Origin: an uncultured Flavobacteriaceae bacterium
Lineage (GTDB): Bacteria; Bacteroidota; Bacteroidia; Flavobacteriales; Flavobacteriaceae
Length of the DNA stretch: 64,000 nt
Assembly (NCBI GenBank): GCA_947500525.1
Contig: CANMSH010000003.1
Coordinates: 434,001-498,000, forward strand
Reading direction: 5' to 3'
Shown here: one piece after another, positions 8,095-43,156 of the stretch
Position numbering within the stretch: position 1 is the first letter of the stretch
Layout of the letters: every line of letters begins with the position of its first letter
The notes under the pieces: generated by a model
The model's database searches: none
The model's input: the letters and a program-made list of their open reading frames with translations, nothing else
What the model was told of the DNA's origin: nothing
Made by a program: the position numbers and the translations under genes

Positions 8095-9135
8095 TTATAA
8101 ACTTTCAGCAAGGGTCTTTTGTGTTTTTAACCATTTGTTAAAATCAGCTTCTTCTTCAACAATAATTTTCAATTGCATATTGTAATGTGAAGCTCCACAA
8201 ATCTTATTACATAATAGTAAATAGTCAAACTCTACTTCCTCTTTCCCTTGCGACTTTCTCAACGCATTGATATTCTCAAATTTCGTTTTAGTATCAGGAT
8301 ATGCTCTCATTTCTTCAGTTGTTACTGAAGGTGTATATTTAATTTGTGTTACCATTCCAGGCACACAGTTCATTTGAGCTCTAAAGTGAGGCATATACGC
8401 CGAGTGTAATACATCTTGAGAACGTAATTTAAATATGACTGTTCTACCCTTTGGTAAGTGTAATTCTTTTAAAAACGTTTCTGGGTTTGGTGCTAATGCG
8501 ATATCATCTGCTGCATTTTTATCACTCATATCTACACCCATTGTATTGGTTCCTTCGATAAAACGAACATTGGCATTTCCTAATGTATTATCATCACCTG
8601 CATAACGCGCTTCCCATTGAAACTGTTTGGCATACAATTCTATGATTAAAGGATTTTCGGCGTCAGAGGCATCCATTACTTGATTCCATGTCCAAAGACC
8701 ATAAATAATCATTCCTGCCAAAACTACCGCCGGAGTGATTGTCCACCACATTTCGAGTTTATGACTATCAGCAAAGAAATACGCTTTTCTACCTTCGGTC
8801 CCTCTATACTTAAAAGTAAACCAAAAAATTAAAGCTTGCAGTATAAATTGAACAACAAGTATAAGTGCCATTGAATACTTAAACAATAGATCTATATGGT
8901 ATGCTTCTTCAGAAGCCCCTAACTGTGGTAACAACACTTCTCTTGTTCCCCACAAACTCAACACCATTAATACGTATATAAAAGTCATTAAGACAAGCAT
9001 AAGCTTTCCGTTAATGTCATTCTCTTTTGGCGTTGCGGTTTGATTCTCTTTTTTAGTTAATCCTAACAATTTTACTAATTGCCAACAAACAACCATTAGA
9101 GCTACACCGATAATAATATAAAATAATGCCTTCAT
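8095..9135 (-). CDS. coxB: Cytochrome c oxidase subunit II
   Basis: A 346-residue subunit II with the dinuclear CuA site in CNKICGASHYNM plus the upstream His of DVLHSAYMPHF, and a conserved aromatic patch in KQFQWEARY. It takes electrons from cytochrome c or directly from the ACIII haem subunits. About four hydrophobic helices precede the cupredoxin domain rather than the usual two (residues 3-23, 46-63, 84-108 and 131-150), so the N-terminus is extended. No haem c motif is present, so it is not a caa3-type fusion. It lies 24 bp downstream of actF and 29 bp upstream of coxA. Confidence 0.96.
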   Translation of the reverse strand: MKALFYIIIGVALMVVCWQLVKLLGLTKKENQTATPKENDINGKLMLVLMTFIYVLMVLSLWGTREVLLPQLGASEEAYHIDLLFKYSMALILVVQFILQALIFWFTFKYRGTEGRKAYFFADSHKLEMWWTITPAVVLAGMIIYGLWTWNQVMDASDAENPLIIELYAKQFQWEARYAGDDNTLGNANVRFIEGTNTMGVDMSDKNAADDIALAPNPETFLKELHLPKGRTVIFKLRSQDVLHSAYMPHFRAQMNCVPGMVTQIKYTPSVTTEEMRAYPDTKTKFENINALRKSQGKEEVEFDYLLLCNKICGASHYNMQLKIIVEEEADFNKWLKTQKTLAESL

Positions 9136-24948: not shown

Positions 24949-27900
24949 TTGTTGAAATTTAGTATACTAAAGACATATAGCTCCCTTTTATTTTTTGTGT
25001 TGTTTTTTACAACATTAATTGCGCAGTCTCAAATTCCTCCTCCACCGAAACCTAAAGCTTCAGAAAAAAAAGACACAGCAAATGTGCCTTTGACGAAAAT
25101 AGACACCATCAAAATTGATTCGGTAACGGCATTGCCGTATCCTTTTAAATCAGGTCAAAAAGGAGGGCTTTTCTTAAACGAAATTAAGAATATGGAGGTG
25201 ATCTATGATCCTGTGAAAGGTCACTACATTTTTGTAGAAAGAATTGGTGATTATTTAATCAAGCATCCTTTTTACATGACCGCCAAAGAGTACGAAGAAT
25301 ATCGTTTGACCCGTGACATTCTCAAGTACTTTAAAGAAAAAATAAGTGCTGTTGGTGGACGAAAGAAGAACGCAGCTGAAGCTCAAAAAAATCTGCTCCC
25401 CGCATATTATGTCAAATCTGAATTTTTCGAGAATATTTTTGGAGGCAACAAAATAGAAGTTAATCCGCAAGGTTCTGTTTTGGTTAAAATGGGATTGTTA
25501 TTTCAGCGCGTTGAAAATCCGCAATTATCAGAGCGAAATAGAAGAAGTAGGACATTCGATTTTGGACAGGAAATAAATGCAAGTTTAAATGCCCAAGTTG
25601 GAAAAAGATTAAGAGTGAATGCGGCTTTTGACACACAGGCTAATTTCAACTTCCAAAACCAAGTAAAATTAGAATATACACCTACTGAAGATGATATTAT
25701 TCGAAAAATTGAAGTTGGTAATGTAAGCATGCCTATTCAAAGCTCCTTAATTTCGGGCGCACAAAATCTCTTTGGGGTAAAAACAGAATTACAATTTGGT
25801 AAGACCACAGTAACGGGAGTATTTTCTCAACAACGATCTCAAACCAGATCTGTACAAGCTCAAGGGGGATCGACCATACAAGAATTTAACATTAGAGCTA
25901 GTGACTATGATGATAATAGACACTTCTTTTTGTCACAACAATTTAGAGATGGCTATAACGATGCCCTGAAACAGTTACCATTGGTGACAAGCTCAAAATA
26001 TATCACAAGAGTTGAAGTTTGGATTACGAATAGAAATTCTACGACGGAAAACGTTCGAAATATTGTTGCACTTGCAGATTTAGGTGAAGGTGATGTTTCT
26101 AACTTAGGTGCCTCTGCATTAGTTACTGTAAATGGATCTCAAGACCCTTCAAATGAAACGAATAGCTTGAGTACTTTTTTGACTTCTGGCAATCCAATTC
26201 GTAACATTTCGACCGTTACGAATGCCCTCGCTGGTTTTTCTCAAGGAAGTGATTATTCTATTTTAGAAAATGCACGTAAACTAACTCTTGGTATTGACTT
26301 CGAACTAAATCCTCAACTCGGATATATTACTTTAAACAGACGCCTAGCCGACAGTGATGTTTTGGCCGTAGCTTACGAGTACACCGAAAACAGTCCGAAT
26401 GCAAGTAATCCTGGAGAAAATGTTTTTAGAGTGGGTGAATTGAGTGGAGATGGTGTTACGGCTCCAGACAATTTAGTAGTTAAACTTTTACGCAGTGAGA
26501 TTATTGATACAAGTTTACCATTGTGGGACCTCATGATGAAAAATGTGTACAGTTTACCAGGAGCATTTCAATTACAGCCTGATGGCTTTCGATTAGAAGT
26601 CTTGTACCAAGATGATGCTACAGGAGTACCAATCAACTTTTTACAAAATGCTGAGACCATTATTAATAGCGATTCAGTAAGTAAACAACCCCTGTTAAAT
26701 TTATTACGTCTAGATCTTCTTGATGGAACGAGCAACATTTTAGATGGAGGTGACGGTTATTTTGATTTTATCGAAGGTGTAACTATTAATTCACAAGACG
26801 GATATATTATTTTTCCTACTGTCGAGCCCTTTGGATCTAGCAGTACAACTGCGGTAGATCTTCTTGAGACTGGAGAATTGGGTCAAATCTTAACGGATCC
26901 AGCTGACGATAGATTCATATTTAATGAGTTATATGACAATACAAAAGCGCAGGCTCAAAACGACTTTCAAAGCAAAGACAAATACTCATTATCTGGTTAT
27001 TTTAAATCAGAATCTAGCGGAGGAATACGACTAAATGCCTTTAACGTTCCCAGAGGATCTGTGACGGTTACTTCAGGTGGTAGAGAATTATTAGAAGGCT
27101 CAGACTATGTGGTAGATTACCAAAGTGGTACAGTGCAAATCATAAATCCCAATTTAGTTGCTTCAAATGCTCCCATTAACGTTTCAGTTGAAAATAATAA
27201 TGGATTCAATCAGCAACGACGAAGTTTCATGGGAATTGATGTGCAACACATTTTTAATGACCAATTGGCTGTGGGTGGAACCATTGTTAATTTAAATGAA
27301 CGCCCGTTTACCCAAAAACCTCAATTTGGTGCAGAGCCCGTGAATAATACAATTATGGGTTTTAACTTAAATTACAATACCGAGGTTCCTAAATTCACAA
27401 AATGGGTAAACAAACTGCCCAATATAGATACTGATGCCACTTCCAACTTTTCATTAAGAGCCGAAGCAGCCTATTTATTACCTGGATCTCCCAGAGGAAT
27501 TAACCTTAGCGGAGAAGCTGCATCCTATGTAGATGACTTCGAAGGTTCGCAAATACCTTTAGATATTAGTTCACCTAGACAATGGTTTTTAGCAAGTGTT
27601 CCTCAGAAACAAGCAGTAAATTCTGATTTAGATTTTACAAATGCGAATGTAGCACCAGGATTAAATTCAGGAATACCGGGCGCAAATAACGCTAACCTAA
27701 GATTGGGGGCAGAAAGATCAAAATTAGCTTGGTATACTATTGATAGACTCTTTTACGGAACTACATTAAAACCGAGTAATATCAATGATGTAGAATTGTC
27801 TCGAGCTGAAGTTAGGCGAGTTGGTTTTCGAGAATTGTTCCCTGAGCTCGATCTCGATGTTACTCAAAGCAACATCATCAACACCTTAGATTTAGCCTAC

Positions 27901-30900
27901 TATCCTAAAGAAAGAGGACCCTACAATTTTAACGAAACAGTTCCTACAAACACATACGATGCGAATCCAGAAGATAAATGGGCTGGAATTATGCGTGCAT
28001 TGAACACGACTGATTTCCAACAAGCCAATGTTGAATATATTCAGTTTTGGTTGATGGATCCTTATGAAAATTATTCGATTACACCTGAAGAAGGTGGTGA
28101 AAGTATTGTTACTCCTGCTGATTTTGGAGGAGAACTTTATTTCAACTTAGGAAATATTTCTGAAGATATTTTACCTGATAATAGACGAATGTATGAAAAT
28201 GGGTTGCCAAGAGATGGTGTTAAAATAGATGAAACGGGATTATCGCCAAATGTAAATAGAACCGAATGGTCTGATGTGCCAATTAATCAATCATTGATTT
28301 ATGCTTTCTCTGAAGAAGATGATGAAAGACCTAACCAAGATGTTGGTCTTGACGGATTAACAGATGCAGAAGAGACAGCAAGGTTTCCCGGCTTTGGAGA
28401 AGACCCCTCAAATGATAATTATAATTTCTTTCGCGGTGGTAATTTAGATGCTATTAACGCTTCAATATTAACGCGGTATCGTAATTTCAATAATGCAGAA
28501 GGAAACTCTCCTACTATCAATAATTCTACAGAATCTTTCCCTACTTCGGGAACTTCTTTTCCGGATATCGAAGATATTAACCGTGATCAAACGATGAGTG
28601 CTGTAGAGAGTTACTATCAATATCGAATTTCTTTAAACCCAACGGATTTAGTTGTTGGGCAAAATAATATAGTAGATCAAAAAAATGTTACCGTTAATCT
28701 ACCTAACGGAGCAACACAGCAAACCACATGGTATCAATTTAGAATTCCGATTACTACGGGAACTCCAATAGGTGGAATTTCTGGATTTAATGCTATTCGA
28801 TTTATGCGAATGTATTTAACAAAATTTAGAATACCAGTCGTATTGCGTTTCGGAGAGCTAGAATTGATTCGAGGAGATTGGAGACGTTACACACGGTCTT
28901 TGGTAGAACCTTTACCTGCAAACCCTGAGTTAGATGAAGATGACAATAGAAATTTTGAAGTTGGTGTAGTTAATATTCAGGAAAATGAAAATAAACAGCC
29001 CATACCGTATGTCTTGCCCCCTGGAGTGAGAAGAGAACGTTTGCAAGGTAGCACTACAATACAAGAGCAAAACGAGCAATCTTTACTAGTTCGAGTAAAA
29101 GAATTAGAACCGGGTGAAACGCGCGCAGTATTTAAAAACACAAGTTATGACATGCGAATGTTCAACAAACTTAAAATGTTCGTACATGCCGAAAGTATCC
29201 CTGGACTTCCTGATACAGACAATAATGACCTTACCGCTATCATTCGTTTAGGAAGTGATACCGATGATAATTTTTACCAATTAGAAATCCCATTAAAAAT
29301 TACAGAGTCAGGGCAAAGCTTGGCAGACAGTATTTGGAAGAATGATTTCGACACCAAACTTAGAGACTTAGGTAAACTAAAATTAGAGCGTTTAAATACA
29401 ACCGCGCCACTTAATCAATTGTACCCAAGTATAGCCAGTGATCCAGAGGCTAGAATTCGAGTAAAAGGAAATCCGAATTTATCGAACTTAAGAACCTTAA
29501 TGATTGGGGTGAGAAATGATGCAACGACCAATAAAACTGCAGAGCTATGGTTTAATGAATTACGCGTTGCTGAGTTTGACAATAAAGGCGGCTGGGCTGC
29601 GGTGTTAAATGCCGATGCCAACTTTGCAGATTTTGCTGACGTCTCAGTTTCAGCAAGAGCAAATTCTGACGGTTTCGGAGCTTTAGAACAACGTGTACAA
29701 GAAAGGAGTCAAGAAGATGTTAAACAATATGATATTGTTACCAATGTGAACCTCGGTCAACTACTTCCGAAAAAAGCTGGTATTAAAATACCTTTAAACT
29801 ATAGTATATCTGAAGAGTTCAAAGATCCGAAATGGGACCCGCAATATCAAGATGTGTTATTTGAAGATGCCGAAGATATTAATCCAAATAGTGAAAACTC
29901 AAGAGACTATACTAAACGAAGAAGTATCAACTTAATTAACGTTCGTAAAGAAAGAACGAATAACGAAAAAAAGAAACGTTTTTACGATATTGAAAATGTT
30001 ACCGCTTCCTATTCATTCAGCGAAACCTATCATAAAGATTATAATGTGGTTCGTTTTATTGATCAAAATGTCAGGGCATCGGCAAACTATAACTATAGCT
30101 TTAAGCCGCTCCCCTTAGAACCACTTAAGAATTGGAAATTTTTAAATAAAAGTAGTTATCTAAAATTTATCAAAGACTTTAATATAAACTTACTTCCAAC
30201 ATCAATTTCGGTCAATTCCAATATTACGCGAAGTTTCAACCAACAAGAATCCCGATCTTTGGTAGAAACACTGCCGGCATTGCCAGTATTAACGCAACGT
30301 CGTTTTATGTTCGATTGGGATTATACCGTTGCTTATGACCTTACTAAATCGTTGCAATTTTCATTTAACGCGGCTAATAATTTCATTTATGATGAATTTG
30401 ATCCAGAAAGTGATGAAACCATTTTCAACAATTTCTTTGAAATAGGTAGACCAAATAATTATCATCAAACGTTGGATGCCAATTATAAAATACCGATTAG
30501 CAAAATACCTATTTTCGATTTTATTAGTGCAACCTATAAGTATACTGCCGATTTCGATTGGCAAGCTCCGTCTAATAGTTTCATAGATCAAATTGGTAAT
30601 ATTATCCAAAACGCTAATACGCACTCGTTATCAGCCGATTTAGATATGCGTAAATTCTATAAGCGCACTGGGCTATTAGATCTTGCAAAGCCTAAACGAA
30701 AAAAGAAAAAAAGAACTGCAAAAAAGAAAAAGAAAGGCGAAAAGTCGAAACCTACCCTTGCGAAAACCGTTAAACCCAAAACACCTAGAAAGAACACCAA
30801 AAAAATTACTGGAGGTAGAAAAGTACTTCAAAGCTTTGTAGATGTATTAACTTCTGTAAAAAAGATACGAATTGGATACACAGAAAACAATGGTACAGTA

Positions 30901-32157
30901 TTACCAGGCTATCGCCCAGAAATAGGCTTTTTAGGGAGAAATCGTTTTGGAGGAGGTTTGGCTCCAACTTTAGGCTTTGTATTTGGGAGTCAACGAGATA
31001 TAAGACAAACGGCTATTGCGAATGAATGGCTCATAACTAATGACGACTTCAGTAAAACGTTTAGCACTAGAAAACTTTCTAAATTAGATTTGAGTGCCGA
31101 AGTACGTCCATCTAAGAACCTTAATATTGAATTAACAGCCAGTCGCGTATTTGCGAGTAATATAGCACAACAAATCGCACTTAATGATGCTGGTGATGCA
31201 TTAGATACCGACTTCCCTGTGAATGAGTTAGGAAACTTTAGTATCAGTACTTTTATGCTTAAGAATGCTTTTGACGGTAATGGTGACGCTACTTTTGAAA
31301 AATTTAAAGCTAATAGAATTGTTGTGGCGCAGCGCTTGGCTGGTTTACCAATAGATCCAAATGCGACAGCTTTCCCAGCGGGTTACGGCCCTAATAGTTC
31401 TGATGTTTTACTACCTGCATTCTTAGCGACATATACTGGCCAGAGTCCTGAAAAAGTAAAGACAAGTCCTTTTAGAGATATTCCTATTCCAAACTGGCGT
31501 ATTAACTATAAAGGATTAATGAAATTTGCCTGGTTTAAAAAACACTTTAGAAACTTTACCATAGAGCATAAATACAATGCTACGTATTCTATTATTGGTT
31601 TTAGTAATAACCTACTTTTTGGAGGTGCCAATGACCTTAACGGAAACTTGCAACCCGAAAAACTATTCACTGGTATCAATTTGGTTGAAGAATTTTCTCC
31701 TTTAGTAAAAGTCGATATGAAAATGCGAAATTCATTCTCGCTCAGAGCAGAGGTTCGTAAAGACAAAGCCTTAAATTTAAACTTCAACAATAATACCCTT
31801 ACAGAGATAAGAGGGACAGAGTATATACTTGGTCTTGGCTATCGCTTAAAAGATGTTCGACTAAAAATTAAAACTGGCGAAGTGAAAACAACTTTTAAAG
31901 GAGATATTAATTTAAAAGCAGATTTAGGAATCCGAAATAACTCTACAATTATTAGATCGATCGATATTAATAATAATCAAATAACCGGAGGTCAAAAATT
32001 AATCTCCTTTAAATTTGTCGCAGACTATGCGTTAAATCAAAACTTATTGGCTTCATTTTTCTATGATCAAAACTCTTCTGAATTTTTGATTTCTACCACT
32101 TTCCCAAGAAAATCTGTGAATGCTGGAATAAGTTTGCGATATACTATTGGAAATTAA
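24949..32157 (+). CDS. sprA: SprA, type IX secretion outer-membrane translocon and gliding motility protein
   Basis: A 2402-residue protein of the SprA/SOV family, the length expected for flavobacterial SprA. SprA is the very large single-chain beta-barrel through which type IX substrates, including gliding adhesins, cross the outer membrane. The N-terminus has a signal peptide (LLFFVLFFTTLIAQSQ) and a proline-rich IPPPPKPK stretch; long beta-rich repeats run to the C-terminus, which ends GISLRYTIGN. The start is TTG at 24949 or 24952, immediately after the ruvA stop, with no ATG in reach. Odd feature: about residues 1913-1950 form a Lys-rich loop (KRKKKKRTAKKKKKGEKSK). gcvH and a VanZ-like gene follow closely. 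Confidence 0.96.
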   Translation: MLKFSILKTYSSLLFFVLFFTTLIAQSQIPPPPKPKASEKKDTANVPLTKIDTIKIDSVTALPYPFKSGQKGGLFLNEIKNMEVIYDPVKGHYIFVERIGDYLIKHPFYMTAKEYEEYRLTRDILKYFKEKISAVGGRKKNAAEAQKNLLPAYYVKSEFFENIFGGNKIEVNPQGSVLVKMGLLFQRVENPQLSERNRRSRTFDFGQEINASLNAQVGKRLRVNAAFDTQANFNFQNQVKLEYTPTEDDIIRKIEVGNVSMPIQSSLISGAQNLFGVKTELQFGKTTVTGVFSQQRSQTRSVQAQGGSTIQEFNIRASDYDDNRHFFLSQQFRDGYNDALKQLPLVTSSKYITRVEVWITNRNSTTENVRNIVALADLGEGDVSNLGASALVTVNGSQDPSNETNSLSTFLTSGNPIRNISTVTNALAGFSQGSDYSILENARKLTLGIDFELNPQLGYITLNRRLADSDVLAVAYEYTENSPNASNPGENVFRVGELSGDGVTAPDNLVVKLLRSEIIDTSLPLWDLMMKNVYSLPGAFQLQPDGFRLEVLYQDDATGVPINFLQNAETIINSDSVSKQPLLNLLRLDLLDGTSNILDGGDGYFDFIEGVTINSQDGYIIFPTVEPFGSSSTTAVDLLETGELGQILTDPADDRFIFNELYDNTKAQAQNDFQSKDKYSLSGYFKSESSGGIRLNAFNVPRGSVTVTSGGRELLEGSDYVVDYQSGTVQIINPNLVASNAPINVSVENNNGFNQQRRSFMGIDVQHIFNDQLAVGGTIVNLNERPFTQKPQFGAEPVNNTIMGFNLNYNTEVPKFTKWVNKLPNIDTDATSNFSLRAEAAYLLPGSPRGINLSGEAASYVDDFEGSQIPLDISSPRQWFLASVPQKQAVNSDLDFTNANVAPGLNSGIPGANNANLRLGAERSKLAWYTIDRLFYGTTLKPSNINDVELSRAEVRRVGFRELFPELDLDVTQSNIINTLDLAYYPKERGPYNFNETVPTNTYDANPEDKWAGIMRALNTTDFQQANVEYIQFWLMDPYENYSITPEEGGESIVTPADFGGELYFNLGNISEDILPDNRRMYENGLPRDGVKIDETGLSPNVNRTEWSDVPINQSLIYAFSEEDDERPNQDVGLDGLTDAEETARFPGFGEDPSNDNYNFFRGGNLDAINASILTRYRNFNNAEGNSPTINNSTESFPTSGTSFPDIEDINRDQTMSAVESYYQYRISLNPTDLVVGQNNIVDQKNVTVNLPNGATQQTTWYQFRIPITTGTPIGGISGFNAIRFMRMYLTKFRIPVVLRFGELELIRGDWRRYTRSLVEPLPANPELDEDDNRNFEVGVVNIQENENKQPIPYVLPPGVRRERLQGSTTIQEQNEQSLLVRVKELEPGETRAVFKNTSYDMRMFNKLKMFVHAESIPGLPDTDNNDLTAIIRLGSDTDDNFYQLEIPLKITESGQSLADSIWKNDFDTKLRDLGKLKLERLNTTAPLNQLYPSIASDPEARIRVKGNPNLSNLRTLMIGVRNDATTNKTAELWFNELRVAEFDNKGGWAAVLNADANFADFADVSVSARANSDGFGALEQRVQERSQEDVKQYDIVTNVNLGQLLPKKAGIKIPLNYSISEEFKDPKWDPQYQDVLFEDAEDINPNSENSRDYTKRRSINLINVRKERTNNEKKKRFYDIENVTASYSFSETYHKDYNVVRFIDQNVRASANYNYSFKPLPLEPLKNWKFLNKSSYLKFIKDFNINLLPTSISVNSNITRSFNQQESRSLVETLPALPVLTQRRFMFDWDYTVAYDLTKSLQFSFNAANNFIYDEFDPESDETIFNNFFEIGRPNNYHQTLDANYKIPISKIPIFDFISATYKYTADFDWQAPSNSFIDQIGNIIQNANTHSLSADLDMRKFYKRTGLLDLAKPKRKKKKRTAKKKKKGEKSKPTLAKTVKPKTPRKNTKKITGGRKVLQSFVDVLTSVKKIRIGYTENNGTVLPGYRPEIGFLGRNRFGGGLAPTLGFVFGSQRDIRQTAIANEWLITNDDFSKTFSTRKLSKLDLSAEVRPSKNLNIELTASRVFASNIAQQIALNDAGDALDTDFPVNELGNFSISTFMLKNAFDGNGDATFEKFKANRIVVAQRLAGLPIDPNATAFPAGYGPNSSDVLLPAFLATYTGQSPEKVKTSPFRDIPIPNWRINYKGLMKFAWFKKHFRNFTIEHKYNATYSIIGFSNNLLFGGANDLNGNLQPEKLFTGINLVEEFSPLVKVDMKMRNSFSLRAEVRKDKALNLNFNNNTLTEIRGTEYILGLGYRLKDVRLKIKTGEVKTTFKGDINLKADLGIRNNSTIIRSIDINNNQITGGQKLISFKFVADYALNQNLLASFFYDQNSSEFLISTTFPRKSVNAGISLRYTIGN

Positions 32158-40208: not shown

Positions 40209-41189
40209 TTATTTCACGTACAACACAGATTTAACTGCTTTAATTACATCCTTGTGATTTGGTATCCATTCTTCAAGTAATACCGGTGAATAAGGTGCGG
40301 GAGTATCTGCCGTTGTGATACGCTGAATTGGCGCATCTAAATAATCAAACGCCTGTTCTTGAACTTGATAGGTAATTTCAGAAGCTACACTGGCAAACGG
40401 CCATGCTTCTTCTAAAATAACCAACCTATTTGTTTTTTTAACAGAAGTTAAGATCGCCTCGTGATCCATAGGTCTCACTGTTCGTAAATCAATAATTTCT
40501 GCAGAAATATTTTCTTTCGCCAATTCGTCTGCGGCTTTATAAGCTTCTTTTATAATCTTACCAAAAGACACTATGGTTACATCTGTACCTTCTCTTTTAA
40601 TATCGGCAACACCAATAGGTAAAATATACTCGCCTTCTGGCACCTCTCCTTTATCACCATACATTTGTTCAGACTCCATAAAGATAACCGGATCATCATC
40701 GCGAATAGCAGCTTTTAATAATCCCTTTGCATCATACGGATTTGAAGGAACGATCACTTTTAATCCTGGCGTATTTGCGAACCAATTTTCAAATGCTTGA
40801 GAATGAGTCGCTCCTAACTGACCTGCCGATGCCGTTGGACCTCTAAATACGATTGGACATTTAAATTGTCCTCCAGACATTTGACGGATTTTAGCTGCAT
40901 TATTAATAATTTGATCAATACCCACTAATGAAAAGTTAAACGTCATATATTCTACAATAGGTCTATTACCTGTCATGGTAGATCCAATGGCAATTCCAGC
41001 GAAACCGAGTTCAGCAATTGGTGTGTCAATAACACGTTTAGCACCAAACTCATCGAGCATGCCTTTAGAGGCTTTATAAGCACCGTTATATTCGGCCACT
41101 TCCTCACCCATTAAATATATACTTTCATCACGGCGCATTTCTTCGCTCATAGCCTCACAAATGGCTTCTCTAAATTGAATTGTTTTCAT
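40209..41189 (-). CDS. pdhB: Pyruvate dehydrogenase E1 component, beta subunit
   Basis: A 326-residue transketolase-type E1 beta subunit. The thiamine-diphosphate-binding region reads IAELGFAGIAIGSTMTGNRP with the active Glu in VEYMTFNFSLVGIDQIIN; FRGPTASAGQLGATHSQAFE and PFASVASEITYQVQEQAFD are other family landmarks. With an alpha subunit it decarboxylates pyruvate and acetylates lipoyl-E2. The alpha subunit and E2 genes are not in the window, so pdhB is transcribed alone here. A good promoter is visible, divergent from etfB and flanked by the palindrome at 41260-41281. Confidence 0.94.
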   Translation of the reverse strand: MKTIQFREAICEAMSEEMRRDESIYLMGEEVAEYNGAYKASKGMLDEFGAKRVIDTPIAELGFAGIAIGSTMTGNRPIVEYMTFNFSLVGIDQIINNAAKIRQMSGGQFKCPIVFRGPTASAGQLGATHSQAFENWFANTPGLKVIVPSNPYDAKGLLKAAIRDDDPVIFMESEQMYGDKGEVPEGEYILPIGVADIKREGTDVTIVSFGKIIKEAYKAADELAKENISAEIIDLRTVRPMDHEAILTSVKKTNRLVILEEAWPFASVASEITYQVQEQAFDYLDAPIQRITTADTPAPYSPVLLEEWIPNHKDVIKAVKSVLYVK

Positions 41190-41210: not shown

Positions 41211-41239
41211 CAAAAATAAGAAAAAACAAAACACTTCAA
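41211..41239 (-). promoter_or_regulatory. Candidate pdhB promoter
   Basis: On the minus strand, TTG (complement 41237-41239) and TATTTTTG (complement 41211-41218) with an 18-bp spacer match the flavobacterial consensus. Transcription would start about 15 bp before the pdhB ATG. Confidence 0.65.
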
Positions 41240-41259
41240 GTCAAAGAAAATAGAATATT

Positions 41260-41281
41260 TTTACTATGCATGCATAGTAAA
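41260..41281 (+). promoter_or_regulatory. Perfect 22-bp palindrome between pdhB and etfB, probable operator
   Basis: Two 11-bp arms TTTACTATGCA and its reverse complement meet without a spacer. It ends 15 bp before the etfB -7 element (TACCTTCG), so it covers the -33 region, a classical repressor position. The pdhB promoter lies on its other side. The size and symmetry are typical of TetR- or MarR-type dimer operators; the cognate regulator is not in the window. Confidence 0.7.
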
Positions 41282-41296
41282 TTGAAAAAAATGTAG

Positions 41297-41304
41297 TACC
41301 TTCG
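41297..41304 (+). promoter_or_regulatory. Candidate -7 element of the etfBA promoter
   Basis: TACCTTCG differs by one base from TAnnTTTG and lies 49 bp before the etfB ATG. The region where the -33 box should be is occupied by the palindrome. Confidence 0.5.
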
Positions 41305-41353: not shown

Positions 41354-42094
41354 ATGAAAATATTAGTTTGTATAAGTCATGTTCCTGATACAACTTCGAA
41401 GATCAATTTCACAGATAACGATACGAAATTTGATACAAACGGAGTTCAATTTGTGATTAATCCTTACGATGAATTCTCATTGACAAGAGCAATGTGGTTT
41501 AAAGAAAAGCAGGGTGCCACCGTAACTGTTGTAAATGTAGGCAATGCGACTACAGAACCTACACTGCGAAAAGCATTGGCTATTGGTGCAGATGATGCTA
41601 TTCGGGTAAATGTTGAAGCAACCGATGGTTTTTTAGTTGCAAAAGAATTAGCTGCTGTCGTAAAAAATGGTGGATATGATCTAGTGTTGGCAGGAAAAGA
41701 ATCTGCTGATTATAATGGACAAATGGTTCCTGGGATGTTAGCTTCCTTAGTAGATTTTAACTTTGTAAATGGTTGTGTTGGAATTGAAGTTGATGGTTCG
41801 GCAGCCACCTTAACAAGAGAAATTGACGGAGGTGATGAAAAAGTATCTTCAACATTGCCTTTAGTTGTCGCCGGACAAAAAGGAATTGTAGAAGAAAAAG
41901 ACCTTAGAATACCAAATATGAGAGGTATCATGATGGCCCGTAAAAAACCATTACAAGTACTTGATCCTACCGGGGCTGCTGCTGCAACGCAATCGCAGTC
42001 TTTCGAAAAACCAGCCGCTAAAGGTGCTGTGAGCTTAGTTGATAATGTTGATGATTTGATTCATCTATTACACAACGAAGCCAAAGTAATATAA
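41354..42094 (+). CDS. etfB: Electron transfer flavoprotein beta subunit
   Basis: A 246-residue ETF beta subunit, opening MKILVCISHVPDTTSKI and containing LVLAGKESADYNGQMVPGMLA, which contacts AMP and the domain interface, and the recognition-loop region GGDEKVSSTLPLVVAGQKG. With EtfA it carries electrons from acyl-CoA and other dehydrogenases to the quinone pool through ETF-quinone oxidoreductase. etfA follows after 99 bp that hold two inverted repeats. The probable operator upstream suggests regulation with fatty-acid or branched-chain amino-acid oxidation. Confidence 0.96.
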   Translation: MKILVCISHVPDTTSKINFTDNDTKFDTNGVQFVINPYDEFSLTRAMWFKEKQGATVTVVNVGNATTEPTLRKALAIGADDAIRVNVEATDGFLVAKELAAVVKNGGYDLVLAGKESADYNGQMVPGMLASLVDFNFVNGCVGIEVDGSAATLTREIDGGDEKVSSTLPLVVAGQKGIVEEKDLRIPNMRGIMMARKKPLQVLDPTGAAAATQSQSFEKPAAKGAVSLVDNVDDLIHLLHNEAKVI

Positions 42095-42157: not shown

Positions 42158-42177
42158 TCTTGCCTTTGAGTGCAAGA
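42158..42177 (+). repeat. Second hairpin in the etfB-etfA gap
   Basis: TCTTGC/GCAAGA with an 8-nt loop, 16 bp before the etfA ATG. Short stem, but its position between the cotranscribed genes and near the ribosome landing site makes an RNA role possible. Confidence 0.35.
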
Positions 42178-42193
42178 TTCAAATAAAAAATAT

Positions 42194-43156
42194 ATGTCTG
42201 TTTTAGTTTTTGCCGATTCATCGGAAGGAAAATTTAAAAAAACTGCTTTCGAAGTAGTTTCTTACGGAAAAAAAGTGGCAGAGCAATTAGGAAGCTCTAT
42301 GACAGCAGTAACCATTAACGGTGGTGACGCTTCAGAATTATACACCTATGGTGCCGAAAAAGTACTTGAAGTAAAAGAAGGAAGTTTGTCGTCTTTTAAC
42401 GCAAAGGCGTATGCCGCTATTATTAGTCAAGCTGCAAATGCACAAAATGCTGATGTAGTAATTATTGATTCGAGTGTTGATGGGTTAACAGTAGCGTCAT
42501 TAGTGGCAGTTGCATTAGACGCAGGGTATGCTTCAAATGTTGTTGATTTACCAAGTAGTACGAGTCCGTTTACTGTAAAACGTAAAGCTTTCTCTAACAA
42601 AGGATTTAACAATACTGTTATCTCTACCGATAAAAAAGTTATTGGAGTTGCGAAGAATTCATATGGTGCTCACGAAAATTCTGTATCAGGTTCTTCTGAG
42701 AGTTTCAGCGCAACAATTCCAGAAATGGGTGTGAAATCAGAAAGCGTGAGTAAAGCTAGTGGTAGTGTTACCATTGCTGATGCTGATGTTGTTGTTTCGG
42801 CTGGTAGAGGGTTGAAAGGACCTGAAAATTGGGGAATGGTCGAAGAACTGGCCACTATTTTAGGTGCCGCAACTGCATGCTCTAAGCCTGTTTCTGATTT
42901 AGGTTGGAGACCACATAGCGAGCATGTTGGACAAACGGGTAAACCAGTAGCATCTAATTTATACATAGCCATTGGAATTTCTGGAGCCATTCAGCACTTA
43001 GCAGGAATCAATGCTTCTAAAGTAAAAGTTGTTATTAACACTGACCCTGAAGCTCCATTCTTTAAAGCGGCAGACTATGGTATTGTAGGAGATGCTTTTG
43101 AAGTAGTTCCACAATTAATTGAAAAATTAAAAGACTTTAAAGCACAAAACTCATAA
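42194..43156 (+). CDS. etfA: Electron transfer flavoprotein alpha subunit
   Basis: The ATG at 42194 (MSVLVFADSSEGKFKKTAFE) gives 320 residues and the standard family N-terminus; the track start at 42170 falls in a hairpin. The FAD-binding C-terminal half contains VVSAGRGLKGPENWGMVEELA, GWRPHSEHVGQTGKPVASNLYIA and GISGAIQHLAGI, all conserved. EtfA holds the redox FAD of the ETF heterodimer. It is followed by a large imperfect hairpin that probably ends the transcript. Confidence 0.96.
   Translation: MSVLVFADSSEGKFKKTAFEVVSYGKKVAEQLGSSMTAVTINGGDASELYTYGAEKVLEVKEGSLSSFNAKAYAAIISQAANAQNADVVIIDSSVDGLTVASLVAVALDAGYASNVVDLPSSTSPFTVKRKAFSNKGFNNTVISTDKKVIGVAKNSYGAHENSVSGSSESFSATIPEMGVKSESVSKASGSVTIADADVVVSAGRGLKGPENWGMVEELATILGAATACSKPVSDLGWRPHSEHVGQTGKPVASNLYIAIGISGAIQHLAGINASKVKVVINTDPEAPFFKAADYGIVGDAFEVVPQLIEKLKDFKAQNS

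Follow-up and report, generated by a model that had tools for sequence, protein, structure and literature searches.

Palindrome and genes at the etfB locus

The window, the whole stretch of 64,000 nucleotides that was analysed, comes from one contig of an uncultured Flavobacteriaceae bacterium. It includes the intergenic region between the divergent genes etfB and pdhB, where the following features were recorded.

41260-41281, no strand: perfect 22-bp palindrome TTTACTATGCATGCATAGTAAA, its own reverse complement, with 11-bp arms and no spacer
41262-41279: 18-bp consensus TAYTATGCRYGCATARTA, the inner part of the palindrome
41297-41304, + strand: etfB -7 box TACCTTCG, of the Bacteroidota type TAnnTTTG with one mismatch, conserved in relatives
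41354-42094, + strand: etfB, electron-transfer flavoprotein (ETF) beta subunit, the putative regulated target; ORF with NCBIfam ETF beta-type matches
42170-43156, + strand: etfA, ETF alpha subunit; ORF with Pfam ETF_alpha and ETF matches
41211-41218, - strand: likely pdhB -7 box TATTTTTG, read from the window sequence
40209-41189, - strand: pdhB, pyruvate dehydrogenase E1 beta subunit, the divergent neighbour; NF006667 and NF008854 above cut-off

etfA lies 3' of etfB and is probably in the same operon. The palindrome without mismatch or spacer that the first-pass annotation had described was confirmed, as was the gap of 15 bp between its end and the etfB -7 box. Among the spacer-free palindromes of the window it is the longest, the runner-up having arms of 8 bp. 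In a second-order Markov simulation, 11-bp arms were reached in 0 of 40 windows and the maximum was 10 bp, found in 8 of 40, so the length alone is only moderately unusual; it is modest evidence, and conservation is the strong evidence. The inner 18-mer with ≤3 mismatches had one match in the window versus 0.01 expected. A weaker site at 27987-28004 was set aside as chance; it sits within an ORF of 2402 aa (24949-32157), which we take to resemble SprA of the type IX secretion system. On the other side, a -33-like TTG/TTTG of pdhB was read at about 41237-41245. The palindrome begins roughly 14 to 22 bp beyond this -33 region in the window sequence, and the operator is outside the pdhB core promoter.

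Conservation across Bacteroidota

The motif (≤2 mismatches) was found in 43 of 60 genomes of relatives, with 3 matches in total for the reversed control. Conservation at orthologous etfB genes, the check proposed with the first-pass annotation, was borne out, with a site upstream of etfB (≤2 mismatches to TAYTATGCRYGCATARTA) in 35 of the 36 Flavobacteriaceae genomes that have the gene. The exact core TATGC-NN-GCATA was present in 126 of 140 distinct regions upstream of marR, a MarR-family regulator gene described below, and in 133 of 140 with ≤1 mismatch; the corresponding values for shuffled upstream sequence were 0% and 0.14%. These marR sites occur in the relatives and, among named organisms, in Aureibaculum, Tenacibaculum, Polaribacter, Lutibacter, Christiangramia, Salegentibacter and Flavobacterium, and as far as Cyclobacterium, and fadB adjoins marR in all 101 loci checked. 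In one genome, two operator copies 28 bp apart lie upstream of marR (G058:C15:46264-46309). In a class-wide sample, the exact consensus was found in 24 of 295 genomes and its reversed control in 0 of 295. The simulated arms of up to 10 bp would speak for a functionless chance palindrome, but position and spacing are conserved in dozens of genomes, the reversed control is nearly empty and the sites are mostly intergenic; chance, already refuted by this conservation, retains a negligible probability. The palindrome is a real, deeply conserved regulatory site.

Sites elsewhere in the genome and in relatives

Genome-wide counts for the own genome were obtained by pattern searches. The inner 18-mer with ≤3 mismatches occurs at five places (reversed control, 1), as follows.

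Site 1: etfB/pdhB intergenic region
Site 2: 20 bp upstream of the start of a MarR-family gene, at the head of marR-fadB-fadA-fadE (beta-oxidation)
Site 3: upstream of a FadH-like flavin oxidoreductase (reductase)
Site 4: upstream of a TonB receptor gene that has a GDSL lipoprotein gene after it
Site 5: flanked by a prephenate dehydratase gene on one side and a histidine kinase-enoyl-CoA hydratase pair on the other

Each of the five lies in a promoter region, and the scatter into coding sequence that a genome scan could have revealed was not seen among them. Site 5 is limited to the own genome and the close relative G004. The bare core TATGCNNGCATA occurs at seven places in the own genome; four of these lack the R-Y centre and the outer TAY/RTA match and most likely arose by chance, three of the four sitting in reading frames. 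The TonB-receptor/GDSL-lipoprotein pair spans L008:5503-9916, and the operator stands at this TonB receptor family in seven genomes, relatives included (loci L241, L244, L246, L247, L257 and L262). The receptor family with the operator, next to which the GDSL lipoprotein lies in the own genome, is a candidate lipid-uptake system.

Of 63 sites examined in loci that were mostly neither marR nor etfB, 58 were outside predicted reading frames. Recurrent targets were a nitronate monooxygenase-like gene, one TonB receptor family, EtfB, FadH-like enzymes and acyl-CoA dehydrogenase, together with thiolase, FadL, FadD and KAS III-like enzymes, the last named from sequence. The commonest extra target was the nitronate monooxygenase-family gene (PF03060; L249, L252, L258, L260, L263, L266, L279 and L296). 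Acyl-CoA carboxylase, CoA-transferase and Fe-S protein targets were found only in the distant family f55. The first-pass annotation had proposed a regulon of acyl-CoA or branched-chain amino-acid oxidation. The acyl-CoA part stands; branched-chain amino-acid oxidation was not seen in the own genome, and targets of a branched-chain type were found in f55 only. Of the target types named for an enrichment scan, acyl-CoA dehydrogenase and thiolase were recovered in relatives, and the regulator gene carrying a site was marR and not a TetR gene.

Candidate regulator

The regulator had been placed outside the window, which agrees with the position of the candidate gene on another contig.

Contig C8, L006:7716-8174, - strand: marR, 152 aa, first gene of marR-fadB-fadA-fadE

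The protein matches Pfam MarR (PF01047) at 44.7 bits versus a cut-off of 24.6, and its Pfam matches are MarR-type/winged-helix only, with no GntR or TetR DNA-binding domain. Against the named NCBIfam MarR equivalogs (e.g. HpaR, SlyA, OhrR and the Saro_0803 family) the best score, 41.3 bits, was below the cut-off of 200. An AlphaFold model built from 30 orthologues had a mean pLDDT of 90.5; all 50 of its 50 best Foldseek matches were MarR-type, and the closest folds were MarR-family proteins including the DNA-bound AbfR, MepR, SlyA and CouR. A search of solved structures with the MarR sequence returned remote MarR proteins only. The presumed recognition region, GMExTSLSRxLK, is nearly invariant. 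An 18-bp consensus inside a 22-bp palindrome fits the MarR-type operator range of about 16 to 22 bp; of the earlier assignment to a TetR/MarR-type operator, the size class was upheld, and the candidate that heads the fadB-fadA-fadE operon belongs to the MarR and not the TetR family.

Presence of the motif follows presence of the gene. Among the relatives, 41 genomes had both motif and marR, 1 the motif only, 6 marR only and 11 neither (Fisher p=5e-7, with shared ancestry ignored). In the class sample, a marR homologue was found in 23 of 23 motif-positive versus 28 of 46 motif-negative genomes (p=3e-4, ancestry ignored), the 23 positives having been re-searched and the 46 negatives hand-picked, many from the same families. 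Genomes without marR almost always lack the motif. The gene carries an operator in its own promoter, which is autoregulation by position, with family f55 as the exception.

Two cases would favour a different main binder of the beta-oxidation operator, either a TetR protein or the product of a second MarR gene (L009:4208-4645), with marR merely a target. In f55, no site lies upstream of the closest marR homologue (about 41% identity), though other sites are present in the genome; this exception rests on two genomes whose marR was read. Genome G046 has two sites (L270 and L271), one of them upstream of an alpha/beta hydrolase gene, and no marR at E<1e-3. The second MarR gene is also close to the FadH-like site, at a distance of two genes. 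However, none of the five places is a site of this second gene itself, and the marR linked to fadB carries the operator in its promoter in almost every genome and occurs together with the motif. A different main binder is therefore unlikely. Judged from sequence, the palindrome is almost certainly bound by a MarR-type repressor whose gene lies in another part of this genome.

Promoter geometry

In 95 of 125 marR loci, 8 to 9 bp separate the 18-bp operator from the start of the -7 box TAnnTTTG, and the operator occupies the -33/-7 spacer. In the own genome (L006 around 8174-8230, minus strand) and close relatives there is a gap of about 4 bp between the end of the -7 box and the start codon of marR, which suggests that the marR-fadBAE transcript is leaderless. 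At etfB, most loci have a TAnnTT(T/C)G box 16 to 21 bp past the end of the 18-bp operator (mode 17; 17 bp in the own genome), and the start codon is at a variable distance from the operator, about 50 to 167 bp. Here the -33 region falls under the operator, and the conserved site and spacing support the earlier placement over the etfBA promoter. Both geometries fit promoter occlusion.

Between the operator and pdhB the distance can be anything from about 69 to over 400 bp, and in three genomes it reaches about 0.9 to 1.25 kb; since it is so variable, pdhB is probably a bystander and not a target. Among the sites examined, no operator was found at pdhB without etfB. Control of pdhB, and with it the pyruvate entry that the first-pass annotation had included in the regulon, is not supported, the distance to pdhB being variable and that to the etfB -7 box nearly fixed. 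The MarR protein could instead activate these promoters, or combine activation with repression. This would include pdhB, whose -33 region has the site directly on its upstream side; in about half of the genomes, 69 to 77 bp lie between the operator and the start of pdhB, which puts the operator past the likely promoter of that gene. Against this, the positions at etfB and marR are the geometry of a repressor, and the operator remains with etfB where pdhB moves away, so activation is quite improbable. Repression by an autoregulated MarR-family protein of fatty-acid beta-oxidation, encoded by marR on C8 and with the palindrome as its etfBA operator, is very likely.

Proposed mechanism

From the observed sites, their conservation, the promoter geometry, the co-occurrence with marR and the target families, we infer DNA binding by MarR, repression rather than activation, and a ligand. 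When fatty acids are absent, a MarR dimer on TAYTATGCRYGCATARTA would block etfB at its -33 region and marR-fadBAE at its -33/-7 spacer. Once fatty acids are imported and activated, a ligand, most likely an acyl-CoA, would bind the dimer and free it from the DNA. Release would switch on beta-oxidation together with the ETF needed by acyl-CoA dehydrogenase, and also the FadH-like reductase and the TonB-receptor/GDSL-lipoprotein pair. Across many Bacteroidota, the site would in this way couple ETF to the genes of fatty-acid breakdown.

Significance and comparison with known systems

Bacteroidota have a major part in the degradation of marine organic matter. An exact-sequence search of the open-access literature found the operator in no paper, and a topic search of the same literature, with subscription papers and RegPrecise outside its scope, found no Bacteroidota regulator of fatty-acid degradation. 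The regulon appears to be without prior description in the searchable open literature, an absence that is not proven. Tentatively, and at somewhat less than an even chance, the protein may be a previously undescribed, class-wide master repressor of Bacteroidota lipid catabolism: a MarR protein unrelated to FadR, PsrA and FadP that senses acyl-CoA and coordinates beta-oxidation, ETF and the TonB-receptor/GDSL-lipase pair as dedicated outer-membrane lipid uptake. With a defined operator, regulator and target list, the question of Bacteroidota fatty-acid regulation becomes directly testable, and there is a lead for assigning poorly understood genes, such as the TonB-receptor/GDSL pair and the nitronate monooxygenase-like gene, to lipid use.

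FabT of Streptococcus and Lactococcus is a MarR-family regulator of lipid metabolism that acts on fatty-acid synthesis, not degradation; it is likened to this MarR by family and lipid role. CouR (6c2s, 6c28), a repressor whose structure was determined with a 23-mer DNA duplex, shares the MarR fold and has only remote sequence similarity (phmmer E=5e-4). It is released by an acyl-CoA-type ligand, p-coumaroyl-CoA, and controls aromatic-acid, not fatty-acid, catabolism. The regulators of fatty-acid degradation found described are proteins of Proteobacteria: FadR, of the GntR family, and PsrA and FadP, of the TetR family (PMC5343134). Like these, the present system regulates beta-oxidation operons through a palindromic site, with fad genes as targets and, as for FadR, fadL (PMC5343134). 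Unlike them, the protein belongs to the MarR family and to another phylum, the likeness being one of role.
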